From positions 1-23,608 of IMG/VR virus record IMGVR_UViG_3300032289_000496: DNA of 23,608 nt. The stretch is one strand, 5' to 3'. The notes beneath the pieces are model-generated. The model did not search any database, was not told the origin of the DNA, and worked only from the letters and a program-made list of their open reading frames with translations. Position 1 is the stretch's first letter; the number at the start of each line of letters is the position of its first letter. A program made the position numbers and the translations under genes. Positions 732 to 8,196 of the stretch are shown piece by piece. This DNA is from a virus.

Positions 732-920
732 TTATTTAGGATTATCGGTTTTATAAAAGCCATTACCTTTAAACTGTATGCCGAATGGAGTAAAATGTCT
801 TATCATTTGAGACTCGCACTCTATGCATGTATAACCTGGATCATCTTCAAGAATTGATCTGTTTACTGACATTGTCGCATGTGCATCATCTTCGCTGCAC
901 TTATACTCATAAACTGGCAC
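732..920 (-). CDS. FmdB-like zinc-ribbon protein
   Basis: This 62-residue protein starts MPVYEYKC and ends with FKGNGFYKTDN, the two signature ends of the FmdB family (small zinc ribbons named from a putative formamidase regulator; true function unclear). The second knuckle is intact (C32 and C35, as TCIEC). The first is not: the usual CxxC appears as C8 followed by SED, so only three of four expected cysteines are present. Metal binding may be altered or use another ligand such as H14. The start overlaps the end of the monooxygenase gene by 14 bases, so it is the last gene of the 2728-732 operon. Family call fairly sure; role unknown. Confidence 0.75.
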   Translation of the reverse strand: MPVYEYKCSEDDAHATMSVNRSILEDDPGYTCIECESQMIRHFTPFGIQFKGNGFYKTDNPK

Positions 921-1659
921 TGTCTTCTCCTAAAATCTCTAGTACAACTTGGTGTATATTTGAATCATTTGTACCAAAGGATGTATTAGATATAAGTATA
1001 TCAGTTGCCCCTTGATTTTCCAACTGCTTAATCTGATTCTTTATTTCTTCCTTGTTGCCAAATATAGTATTATTCTTTTCCTTGCCATTTGGCATTCCGT
1101 CATAAATAAACTTAGCATTGTCATCTACAATAGCTGATAGTCTTACTATAGTTCTTCCGCCCTGTGATCCAATCTCATCAAATTTTGATAGCGTAACTAT
1201 CTGCCCGTCTCCAAACTTAGCTACGCTTTCAGCAGTTTCCTTAGATGAACCACTAAAGAATATCTCTGGGCAATTTTTGTTTATAGACCTAAGTCTTTCA
1301 ACAAACAAGGCGCTTTGCTTTTTCCTGTCTTCTATTGAAGTGGGGATACAAAACAATGCTTGATCATCGTCATGTGTGCCAGCTATTATATTTAAAGATA
1401 TTCTGCCTGGCTCAATCTCATTAAATGCATCTATCATCATAGAGCAATATGCTGCTGTTATGGCGTATGGCCTAATAGCAATCATATACTTAACCTTGTC
1501 CTCAGTATTAATTGCATGGGCAGCCTTGATCCAATAGTCTGATTCATCTGAGTGGAATGTTAATAGCATAGAATCATACTTGTAAAAGTCTATCACTTTA
1601 GACAAAGTTTTTAAATCTTTAGGGTTAAGATTGTTCTTTACCATCCAATGAAATTTCAT
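907..1659 (-). CDS. Luciferase-like (SsuD-like) flavin monooxygenase
   Basis: 250 residues with the look of the bacterial luciferase-like monooxygenase superfamily (TIM barrel, FMN or F420 dependent). Visible landmarks are FHWMVKNN at the start, SMLLTFHSDESDYWIKAAH near residue 30-48, and GRISLNIIAG with a following HDDDQ near 84-100, as in SsuD alkanesulfonate monooxygenases. Those release sulfite from alkanesulfonates using FMNH2 and O2. Family members are usually 320-380 residues, so this one is short, with the C-terminal barrel parts trimmed; no frameshift is seen. It shares an ATGA overlap with the DUF2061 gene. The neighbouring APS-kinase-like gene makes a sulfur role attractive, but the substrate cannot be read from the sequence. 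No NADH:FMN reductase is encoded here, so reduced flavin would come from the host. Confidence 0.75.
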   Translation of the reverse strand: MKFHWMVKNNLNPKDLKTLSKVIDFYKYDSMLLTFHSDESDYWIKAAHAINTEDKVKYMIAIRPYAITAAYCSMMIDAFNEIEPGRISLNIIAGTHDDDQALFCIPTSIEDRKKQSALFVERLRSINKNCPEIFFSGSSKETAESVAKFGDGQIVTLSKFDEIGSQGGRTIVRLSAIVDDNAKFIYDGMPNGKEKNNTIFGNKEEIKNQIKQLENQGATDILISNTSFGTNDSNIHQVVLEILGEDSASL

Positions 1660-1859
1660 TTTCTACCCCATTGAATATAGTTCCACCCACGCTCATGTGC
1701 ATAATAAATAAATATTTTAACTACTGTTTCCCAAAAAGCAATAGCTCCTGAAAGAGTTGCGTCACCAGTAATTACATATGCAACAACAAATGATGAAAGT
1801 GTGCCCCATATTCGATAACTAAGTGCTTTAGCAAATGACCTAGCTTTGGTTACTTTCAT
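1656..1859 (-). CDS. DUF2061 family membrane protein
   Basis: A 67-residue protein matching the DUF2061 pattern: KALSYRIWGT near residue 11, then a membrane segment (SSFVVAYVITG), a second hydrophobic stretch with the conserved Glu (AIAFWETVVKIFIYY), and the diagnostic HERGWNYIQWGRK at the end. Two transmembrane helices are likely. The family has no assigned function. It sits between the 36-residue membrane peptide (ATGA overlap) and the SsuD-like gene (ATGA overlap), so it is translated as part of the same operon and probably serves the same process. Confidence 0.8.
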   Translation of the reverse strand: MKVTKARSFAKALSYRIWGTLSSFVVAYVITGDATLSGAIAFWETVVKIFIYYAHERGWNYIQWGRK

Positions 1860-1966
1860 GAAATAATGTCGCTATCGTCTTTTCCGCCAAACTTCTTGTC
1901 TACCACATAGACCATAATTCCAGCAATTATAAGCGAAGCAACAACTGCAATAGCATTCTCTAACAT
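1856..1966 (-). CDS. 36-residue single-pass membrane peptide
   Basis: A small ORF that starts directly after the TAA of the kinase fusion gene (TAA then ATG) and ends in an ATGA overlap with the DUF2061 gene. The product begins MLENAIAVVASLIIAGIMVY, one hydrophobic helix, and then has a charged tail with DKKFGGKDD. Exact end-to-end packing with both neighbours is the main evidence that it is real. No family recognised; it could be an accessory subunit of the neighbouring membrane protein. Confidence 0.65.
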   Translation of the reverse strand: MLENAIAVVASLIIAGIMVYVVDKKFGGKDDSDIIS

Positions 1967-2728
1967 TTATATACCCATTTCTTTACGTTTTTGCGTAGCA
2001 GAAATAGCATGTATGTCTGCACCTAAATCTACCTGCTCAATCTTATAACCAACATCTCTGCCGTATACAATGTTGGTAATGTTAGGTAATCTTAATACTA
2101 ATGCGCCGTCCATAAATTCATCCTTGGCAATATATTCTTTTACCTGATCAAATTTAAGTGGATCTTTTTCGCTTGTGTTGTATGTATTGCGTACACCAAG
2201 AAGAACTTGACTTGTTCTCTTACCCGCCTCTTTATAAAGTGCGTGGTGTCCTTCATGCCAAGGCTGGTACCTTCCAAGCATTAGGGTTGTTGGTGCGGAC
2301 CAGTCATGTAAATTAAAATACTTAATGATTACTGTTGCTTTTTGATCAGCGTTTAATCGGTGGTCTTCAAATGTTGCATCAAAAATTTCAGGACGCTCAA
2401 ACATTTTATTGGTATCTTCAAATCGACCCTCTTCAATGGTATCCATAAAAATAAGAATATCTGGTTTTCCAAATGCTACACGAGTTAATTCTGTAGGACA
2501 AACAAAGTCAACTACTACTGGTGCTACTCCTTGCTTGGCAATTAATCTTGCCATCTCTCCCATACGTCTTGCTTGCTCTATCCTATCTTCAGCACTAAAG
2601 CCTAGATCAGAATTTACTGTTGAACGGACTTCATCTGCATTAAGATGTATTGCATTAATTCTTTCTTTTAAAGCTTTTGCAAGCTCTGTCTTTCCAGAAC
2701 CTGGGAGACCAATTATTTGAATAATCAT
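1967..2728 (-). CDS. APS kinase-like / NMNAT-like nucleotidyltransferase fusion
   Basis: 253 residues, two domains. The N-terminal half is CysC-like: P-loop GLPGSGKT at 7-14, NADEVR at 30-35, DLGFS at 41-45, then the RI...ARRMGE helix. This is the adenylylsulfate kinase layout (APS + ATP to PAPS), though it lacks the usual C-terminal part. The second half is an HIGH-type nucleotidyltransferase: GRYQPWHEGH at 152-161, YGRDVGY near 222-228 and the ISAT motif at 242-245 with R248. That half resembles NMN adenylyltransferases and related cytidylyltransferases. The combination could serve sulfur activation, NAD salvage or a sugar or lipid head group; sequence alone does not decide. It is first in the 2728-732 operon. 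A weak AGAAAG ribosome site precedes the ATG, and repeat copy A lies 20 bases upstream. Confidence 0.8.
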   Translation of the reverse strand: MIIQIIGLPGSGKTELAKALKERINAIHLNADEVRSTVNSDLGFSAEDRIEQARRMGEMARLIAKQGVAPVVVDFVCPTELTRVAFGKPDILIFMDTIEEGRFEDTNKMFERPEIFDATFEDHRLNADQKATVIIKYFNLHDWSAPTTLMLGRYQPWHEGHHALYKEAGKRTSQVLLGVRNTYNTSEKDPLKFDQVKEYIAKDEFMDGALVLRLPNITNIVYGRDVGYKIEQVDLGADIHAISATQKRKEMGI

Positions 2729-6111: not shown

Positions 6112-8175
6112 TTATTTTCTCTCCTTAATAAATAAATCAGCATTCATTACTTTTGTCCATGCGGAAACAAAGTCATTAACAAACTTTTCTTTAGCGTCAT
6201 CTGATGCATACACTTCTGCAATTGCTCTTAGTTCCGAATTAGATGGAATTATAAGATCTACACGAGGTATATTGATTGCATTTTCTGAATTTGTAAAAGA
6301 AAGAAGTCTAACAAGATATGTATTGCTTAACTCGTTATACTTTAACATTCTCATTCCAGATAATAATAGAACCATTTCTACTGGAGTTAGCCCTAGCAAG
6401 TTAGATTTTTCTACTAGCAGAACTTCTTCTGGCGCAGTAATACTTGGGTCAATGTAGTTGCGGAATGCATCAAACTTTGGCTCAAGAACTGCAAATGATT
6501 CAACATCTGTTTGCTCTTGTGTTGCATCTCCTCTTCCAATTTTTATCATTGGCTCAACATCTATACCGCTATTGCCTGCGGCTGATTGGATACCAATCAT
6601 TCCTCCTAATACAATTAGGTCAGCAAGTGAAATTTTAAACTCATCTTTAATTGGATTTAAAACAGAAATAACCTTATTGATTACATCTTGATCATTTACC
6701 TTCCATGTATTTTGTGGAGCAAGGTTTATACGGGCACCATTAGCACCGCCACGCTTATCTGTCTTTCTAAATGTAGATGCAGATGCCCATGCTGTTGTAG
6801 TTAATTCATTTGGGGATAGCCCAGAAGAAATAATTCTTTCTTTAATAGCGTCTACATCTTTTACTGATAGGCTGCTTCTTGTTTGATTGCCTACTGGATC
6901 CTGCCAAATAAGTTCTTCTGACGGGACTTCCTTACCAAGATATCTTGCAATTGGACCCATATCACGATGAGTTAGCTTGAACCAAGCACGAGCAAACTGA
7001 TCTGAGAAGTAGTCGAAGTCTTCAAGGAATCTACGTGAAATCTTTTCATACTCTGGATCAAACCTCAATGCAAGGTCTGCTGTTGTCATAACTGGGGCAT
7101 GAAACTTGCCTTCAACATGTGCATCTGGTACTAAATTAGATGCAGACTCATCTGTTGGGATCCATTGTGTTGCACCAGCAGGTGATTTTGTTTGCTTCCA
7201 GTCATACTTAAATAATAACTTTAGGTATGAGTTATCCCACTTAGTTGGTGTTGCGGTCCATGCACCTTCAATACCGCTTGTGATTGTGTCTTCTGCATTT
7301 CCCTTACCAAATGAATTCTTCCATCCAAGACCAAGCTCTTCAAGAGGAGCAGCTTCTGGGTTTGGGCCAACGTGTGAAGGATCTCCAGCACCGTGTGCTT
7401 TACCAAATGCGTGTCCTCCTGCAATTAGTGCAACTGTTTCTTCATCATTCATTGCCATACGAGCAAATGTTTCACGAATATCTCTTGCAGAAAGAACTGG
7501 ATCAGGGTTACCGTTAGGTCCTTCAGGGTTTACATATATAAGACCCATTTTCACTGCTGCAAGAGGATTTTCTAACTCACGGTCTCCGCTATAGCGGTTG
7601 TCTGCAAGCCATTCTTTTTCGGCACCCCAGTATGTATCGTCAGACTCCCAAACATCTTCACGACCTCCACCAAAACCAAATGTCTTAAAGCCCATGTTTT
7701 CAAGTGCAACATTGCCTGCAAGTATCATTAGGTCAGCCCATGAAATCTTCTTGCCGTACTTTTGCTTAATTGGCCATAACAAACGACGTGCTTTATCTAG
7801 GTTGCCGTTATCTGGCCAAGAATTTTGTGGAGCAAATCTATGTAGCCCTTCTCCAGCACCGCCACGACCATCAGTAGTTCTGTATGTTCCTGCAGAATGC
7901 CATGCCATACGAATAAAGAATGGTCCATAATTACCGTAATCTGCTGGCCACCACTCTTGTGAATCTGTTAAAAGATTATTAATATCATTTTTAAGAGCAT
8001 CAAGATCTAGACTCTTGAACTCTTCAGCGTAATTAAAATCATCTCCCATAGGATTAGATTTCTCTGAATGCTTTCTAAGTCCTGATAGGTCTAGCTGATT
8101 AGGCCACCAGTCTGCATTCTTTGTTGCATTTGCATTAGTTAAATGCCCAGTTACTGGACACTTTGCTTCGCTCAT
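6112..8175 (-). CDS. katG: Catalase-peroxidase KatG
   Basis: 687 residues, complete bifunctional heme catalase-peroxidase that destroys H2O2. I start at [10 protein letters not shown] because AAGGAG lies 8 bases upstream; a longer reading frame runs back through tRNA-Arg and is not real. Key residues keep exactly the spacing of mycobacterial KatG: distal R89, W92, H93 ([11 protein letters not shown]); the Trp-Tyr-Met cross-link W92-Y214-M240; proximal H255 ([11 protein letters not shown]) and W306; mobile Arg R404 (THRDMGP). The C-terminal duplicated domain is present. No signal peptide, so cytoplasmic. It lies between tRNA-Arg and a small membrane protein gene, downstream of the strong promoter at 8670-8699. 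Reading frame and motifs are intact, so it should be active. KatG is normally a chromosomal gene; here it looks like an auxiliary gene of the phage. Confidence 0.98.
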
Positions 8176-8196
8176 TTTTTTTCTCCTTATATAAGT

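Follow-up and report, generated by a model that had tools for sequence, protein, structure and literature searches.

The window analysed here, the whole 23,608-base stretch of DNA, is a fragment of the record of a lake virus, and related contigs extend to 114-118 kb. ORF calling on the window confirmed five consecutive minus-strand genes at 732-2728 (Table 1), joined in the direction from KIN to FmdB by a TAA-ATG junction, two ATGA junctions and a 14-nt overlap. The original prediction had described both the reading frames and these junctions correctly, although the overlap on which it placed weight is not special: 17 of the 30 junctions across the window overlap or abut, and tight overlap per se is thus no mark of a special module. 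Beyond the five genes the minus strand carries genes for HSP20, a 2OG oxygenase, an SDR, SNase and an endolysin, as well as a catalase-peroxidase (KatG) that is 76-91% identical to copies in viral loci L005, L024, L054 and L076. The 36-aa reading frame is a conserved small gene, found at the same position with 46-91% identity in some relatives, and its slot is occupied by a second DUF2061 gene in others; in L419 and other viral loci two DUF2061 genes stand side by side. Phage isolate records were compared with the region at the DNA level and gave no matches.

Table 1. Features of the five-gene stretch, and the KatG gene, in the window.
Feature	Position	Strand	Remarks
KIN: APS-kinase-like P-loop domain + NMNAT/PPAT-like HxGH nucleotidyltransferase	1967..2728	-	253 aa; Pfam, NCBIfam, PHROG, AlphaFold and structural matches
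Small single-TM protein between KIN and DUF2061	1856..1966	-	36 aa; KD peak 2.42; kept in some relatives
DUF2061 membrane protein	1656..1859	-	67 aa; PF09834 65.7 bits; adjoins KIN; bacterial sulfate-assimilation neighbourhood
LLM: short luciferase-like monooxygenase	907..1659	-	250 aa; viral family nearest MsuD/SsuD; variable cargo
FmdB-type zinc-ribbon protein	732..920	-	62 aa; GTG start; TIGR02605 31.4 bits; mobile cargo
KatG catalase-peroxidase	6112..8181	-	1086 bits; phage-borne

KIN divides into a kinase domain (aa 1-144) and a nucleotidyltransferase domain (aa 145-253). It matches PF01583 APS_kinase with 58.1 bits, above the cut-off of 21.1, and gives a weak CTP_transf/NMNAT match among the Pfam and NCBIfam profiles; it falls below the apsK equivalog TIGR00455 (60.4 vs 138.7 bits), which it matches over the N-terminal 83 aa only. 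In an AlphaFold model (pLDDT 89.8) the fold of the kinase domain is most similar to APS kinase (Z 18.2 over 145 residues, rmsd 2.6), with gluconate kinase as the next family (Z 15.1). An alignment of 42 sequences shows the P-loop (Walker A, G7-T14), D32, R35, F44 and R49 to be invariant or nearly so and R55 to be likewise conserved, and the N-terminal APS-site residues (D-x-x-R, F, R) align to those of solved APS kinases; the adenine-stacking segment that APS kinases have at their C-terminal end has no recognisable counterpart in KIN. The C-terminal domain, modelled alone (pLDDT 90.6), is PPAT/NMNAT-like with Z about 9-10, and its profile finds the NMNATs NadM (3e-10), MJ0541 (4e-9) and NadR (0.002). 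H158, G160, H161, I242, T245 and R248 are invariant in the 42 sequences and make up HxGH and ISxTxxR motifs, and KIN is below the NMN adenylyltransferase equivalog TIGR01527 (17.6 vs 181 bits). It has no match to PF01747, the Sat profile, and an hhalign comparison with one Sat sequence produced an alignment of just 16 residues; Sat is also missing from the structural matches to the C-domain, an absence that carries no evidential weight.

The partnership of KIN with DUF2061 is the most constant feature of the region. The DUF2061 of the window passes the PF09834 gathering score of 23.1, and 79 of the 80 viral loci found through KIN contain a DUF2061 gene, which comes after KIN with the same orientation in 77 of them. 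When near-duplicates were removed by collapsing KIN sequences of >97% identity, 53 close viral relatives remained, and in 50 of them DUF2061 starts no more than 300 nt downstream of KIN; the same test gives none for HSP20, CHAP and LLM, two for FmdB and 11 for SNase. The reverse view is similar, with KIN present in 77 of 79 viral DUF2061 loci before collapsing and lying directly upstream of DUF2061 in 50 of the 51 distinct loci that hold it. DUF2061 proteins in the KIN-adjacent slot can differ at as many as half of their residues, so a variable protein occupies a constant position. The conserved core of the five-gene stretch is KIN plus DUF2061, and the coupling of a membrane protein to the enzymes, as originally proposed, is thereby borne out in nearly all related phages. 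The same gene order was also sought in other genomes, and a near-exact version (KIN, small membrane gene or genes, DUF2061, LLM, FmdB) occurs in loci L002-L005, L007 and L008 and in the cut-off L006. The original prediction therefore passes the test it had set itself, that of the genes being together in no other genome. Locus L169, a contig of a Chitinophagaceae MAG with a phage-type KIN-DUF2061, is probably a misbinned phage.

The free movement of FmdB, SNase and HSP20 around KIN, and the frequency of overlapping junctions, would also be expected if unrelated accessory genes were being shuffled through a hot spot of a compact phage genome, such that adjacency means little. We regard this as very improbable for KIN and DUF2061, which stay together in 50 of 53 distinct loci where the other genes score 0-11, and whose pairing is found again in bacterial chromosomes. 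The pairing does thin with distance: among 45 viral KIN genes at about 40% identity, a set drawn with a Stenotrophomonas phage sequence (two other KIN scans gave mostly the same near relatives), DUF2061 is alongside in 12, and about three quarters are without it. Isolated phages of Stenotrophomonas, Xanthomonas and Clavibacter have KIN at about this level of identity, and their records name no DUF2061 beside it.

Pfam assigns no role to DUF2061 (PF09834), and its bacterial surroundings are informative. Gene clusters that correspond to sulfite reductase or the PAPS-reductase family are represented near DUF2061 in 43 of 80 bacterial and archaeal loci, and natural fusions of DUF2061 to APS kinase occur in Thiomicrorhabdus and Bdellovibrionales, where the fusion gene adjoins cysN in two loci (L222, L244) and has it nearby in a third (L220). 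In a freshwater actinobacterium (L170) DUF2061 comes after a CysNC gene. The sulfur theme of the original prediction is supported by these neighbourhoods and fusions. A sulfur link was not seen in the remaining bacterial DUF2061 loci, and DUF2061 genes are listed among iron-responsive or iron-regulator-dependent genes of Caulobacter and Shewanella (PMC3751524, PMC12442407), so that the role of DUF2061 may be wider than sulfur. Internal tandem duplication of bacterial DUF2061 is seen in L175, L182, L185-L187, L203, L207, L210, L219, L236 and L242.

A further context comes from four DUF2061 loci of marine Alphaproteobacteria, in which the two halves of KIN are adjacent separate genes. Such separate chromosomal halves are present in five of six genomes examined of one marine alphaproteobacterial order, and the four loci read fully have the order CbiX-CobA-CysI-CysH-DUF2061-kinase-nucleotidyltransferase, with rne and a gene for a penicillin-binding protein as its flanks; L525, the only one of these operons that was scored, has CysH, CysI and CobA above the NCBIfam cut-offs. 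CysN above cut-off is absent from all six genomes of the order, and from G582 (see below) as well. The single full PAPS_reduct-family gene in each of four operon genomes tested is the operon CysH, and these four therefore have no CysD. The five operon genomes are MAGs of 0.7-1.1 Mb and are incomplete. Four of them gave no Sat; the fifth, G210, has Sat on another contig. This G210 gene (L530:1483-2544, minus strand) is full-length and lies beside a pyruvate-kinase-like gene. CysN is present in three other DUF2061-bearing marine alphaproteobacterial genomes. The operon CysH is of the iron-sulfur type, with motifs CCRIRK...GCxPCT; enzymes of this type consume APS and do not strictly need PAPS. 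An ATP sulfurylase is therefore required in the operon genomes, and the operon nucleotidyltransferase is the obvious candidate for making the APS, while the kinase step is less forced. A full-length KIN fusion is found in G582, where inspection by eye recognised no sulfur genes around it. Only two of 398 sampled Pseudomonadota genomes have KIN, which is thus rare outside viruses.

These operons also bear on a reading of KIN as an NAD-salvage enzyme, like NadR with its domains reversed, that would convert nicotinamide riboside to NMN and then NAD and so raise NAD during infection or counter an NAD-depleting defence. The C-domain, whose best profile matches are NMNATs and whose HxGH and ISxT motifs are conserved, is what such an enzyme would have. 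The kinase domain, however, most resembles APS kinase and then gluconate kinase, the chromosomal homologues are within a cysI-cysH operon, DUF2061 neighbours sulfur genes and no NAD genes were seen beside KIN, all of which make NAD salvage unlikely.

LLM and FmdB are less firmly attached. LLM matches PF00296 Bac_luciferase with 37 bits, its nearest equivalog models are SsuD and SfnG, and the profile of its viral family, which was recovered from at least 288 stretches, is nearest to MsuD (2e-16), SsuD (2e-11) and SfnG (3e-6). In 16 of 45 distinct viral LLM loci a divergent DUF2061 gene lies 8-11 nt downstream, and 15 of these have no KIN in the stretch. Since LLM loci without KIN thus have a divergent DUF2061 of their own, DUF2061 is a partner of both kinds of enzyme. 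The arrangement of LLM followed by divergent DUF2061, mostly at 8-11 nt, is seen in L457, L459-L461, L463, L467-L481 and L490, with KIN in L471. A five-gene module for sulfonate cleavage, with LLM acting with FMNH2 on sulfonates, had been proposed from the gene set, and both the profile matches and the LLM-DUF2061 pairs would fit it. The position of SsuD Cys54 is nevertheless Glu in the window LLM, with Cys not conserved across the viral family; the protein has 250 aa compared with 380 for SsuD, about a third shorter; it scores 42.8 bits where the SsuD equivalog cut-off is 518; and none of the annotated ORFs around the operon was identified as a flavin reductase. Given the missing cysteine and the much shorter chain, sulfonate cleavage by LLM is unproven. 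SsuD, moreover, releases sulfite, which bypasses APS and PAPS, and LLM and the APS-kinase-like enzyme are therefore not consecutive steps. As KIN-DUF2061 is mostly without LLM, which is otherwise elsewhere or absent in KIN loci, and LLM often has its own DUF2061 while FmdB is mobile, the five-gene module is not supported, and we think it improbable.

The sole match of LLM to a protein of a phage isolate, in 'Acinetobacter phage MD-2021a', was dropped because it lies in a stretch of bacterial chromosome with a full ssu operon; the record (L094, CAKLQH020000009.1) has argA and ileS along with the ssu operon and is probably misnamed. FmdB is borderline for TIGR02605, for which the cut-off is 31.3 bits, and falls short of that of PF09723 (26.3 vs 34.4 bits). 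Its position shifts among relatives, and SNase and HSP20 likewise move around KIN; FmdB is mobile cargo with no supported role. A PLP gene of Cys/Met metabolism occurs in eight viral loci of the KIN and LLM sets.

In four viral loci the gene directly after KIN-DUF2061 is sulfotransferase-like, with the motifs HIPKTAGK and RNPxxARxSYF. The call is weak (Pfam E 0.025, with weak PHROG and profile matches), and the single sequence from L475 has no Pfam or PDB matches for this reading. Members of the viral family with PAPS-binding-type motifs lie at L068:7011-7820, L391:2447-3256 and L475:5356-6174. The candidate sulfotransferase-like product would use PAPS. As for the host, the best bacterial match to the window KatG (69%) comes from genomes of 1.3-1.4 Mb of the class of a freshwater actinobacterium, a match compatible with Nanopelagicales as putative hosts. 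Nanopelagicales are described as needing reduced sulfur, and catalase supply limits growth in some of them (PMC7527133). Genes of the PAPS_reduct family are absent from three genomes of the likely host type, which makes it doubtful that KIN serves reduction alone in such hosts; the phage may use it for sulfur supply or for PAPS supply.

We favour, with somewhat more confidence than doubt, an interpretation of KIN as a compact bifunctional enzyme of sulfate activation, similar to a PAPS synthase, with DUF2061 as its membrane partner. From the operon and its genomes' missing CysND or Sat we infer that the C-terminal NMNAT-like domain would form APS from sulfate and ATP, replacing ATP sulfurylase, and we propose that the N-terminal APS-kinase-like domain would convert APS to PAPS. 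DUF2061, translated soon after KIN, may anchor the enzyme at the membrane or move an oxyanion across it, and part of the varying downstream cargo (LLM here, sulfotransferase-like or unrelated genes elsewhere) would serve sulfur metabolism. In support of a sulfate-activating KIN are the split halves within a cysI-cysH operon, with known ATP sulfurylases missing from most such genomes; the APS-kinase fold and motifs and the adjacency of 50/53 and 50/51; and the DUF2061-APS kinase fusions with cysN, the CysNC gene beside DUF2061 and the sulfotransferase-like neighbours. The case is weakened by the failed apsK cut-off and a C-domain that is NMNAT/PPAT-like and not Sat-like, by the Sat of G210 and the incompleteness of the MAGs, by an iron-sulfur CysH that does not strictly need PAPS and the weak sulfotransferase call, and by the distant KIN genes that mostly lack DUF2061. 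The viral loci are also without CysH or sulfite reductase near KIN: profiles for PAPS reductase and sulfite reductase had no matches in the 402 viral stretches scanned, the window among them.

A more modest role would have the kinase half as a true APS kinase that tops up PAPS from host APS while the C-domain adenylylates some other small molecule. Viral cysC genes are reported as auxiliary metabolic genes and as transcribed in lakes (PMC10914622; PMC9529941). Such a role leaves unexplained both the missing ATP sulfurylase of the operon genomes and the conservation of the C-domain as an adjacent separate gene, and we consider it rather improbable.

If KIN does activate sulfate, common lake viruses bring their own complete sulfate activation, perhaps even into hosts described as dependent on reduced sulfur. 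Sulfate can then also be used by some streamlined marine bacteria with a seemingly broken pathway. DUF2061 would gain a role, the viral cysC and nadM annotations would be corrected, and a small new kind of ATP sulfurylase would be added to a pathway that is not known to have more than two. On the broader claim we stop a little short of even confidence: that the KIN C-domain is a third kind of ATP sulfurylase, NMNAT-like and of ~115 aa, used across the order of streamlined marine Alphaproteobacteria instead of CysDN or Sat and fused to APS kinase in phages, and that DUF2061 is a membrane component dedicated to sulfate or sulfonate metabolism, with several sulfur enzymes as its partners. In the open-licence literature we found neither the fused NMNAT-like domain, nor the operon homologues with apparent loss of ATP sulfurylase, nor the DUF2061 link, and nothing useful on DUF2061 and phage, phage katG or LLM as auxiliary genes.

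Several known systems resemble parts of the locus. The reported viral cysC genes are, like KIN, phage-borne and APS-kinase-like and come from lakes and the sea, and annotation pipelines probably call KIN a viral cysC; the available text of these reports describes no fused nucleotidyltransferase, DUF2061 partner or bacterial operon homologues (PMC10914622, PMC9529941). NadR similarly fuses an NMNAT-like domain to a P-loop kinase, whereas in KIN the domain order is reversed, the kinase is of the APS-kinase kind and the gene context is one of sulfur. The nearest solved relatives of LLM are SsuD, MsuD and SfnG, from which it differs in being ~130 aa shorter and in lacking the Cys54 of SsuD. The DUF2061 of the window is a PF09834 member by the curated cut-off and is linked here to sulfate assimilation. 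The closest parallel in architecture is the animal PAPS synthetase (PAPSS), which like KIN has an N-terminal APS-kinase fold (Z 16-18) followed by a nucleotidyltransferase of the HxGH superfamily; PAPSS has about 620 aa compared with the 253 of KIN, whose C-domain is NMNAT/PPAT-like, is without the PUA-like domain and retains a recognisable likeness to Sat only in its ISxTxxR end.
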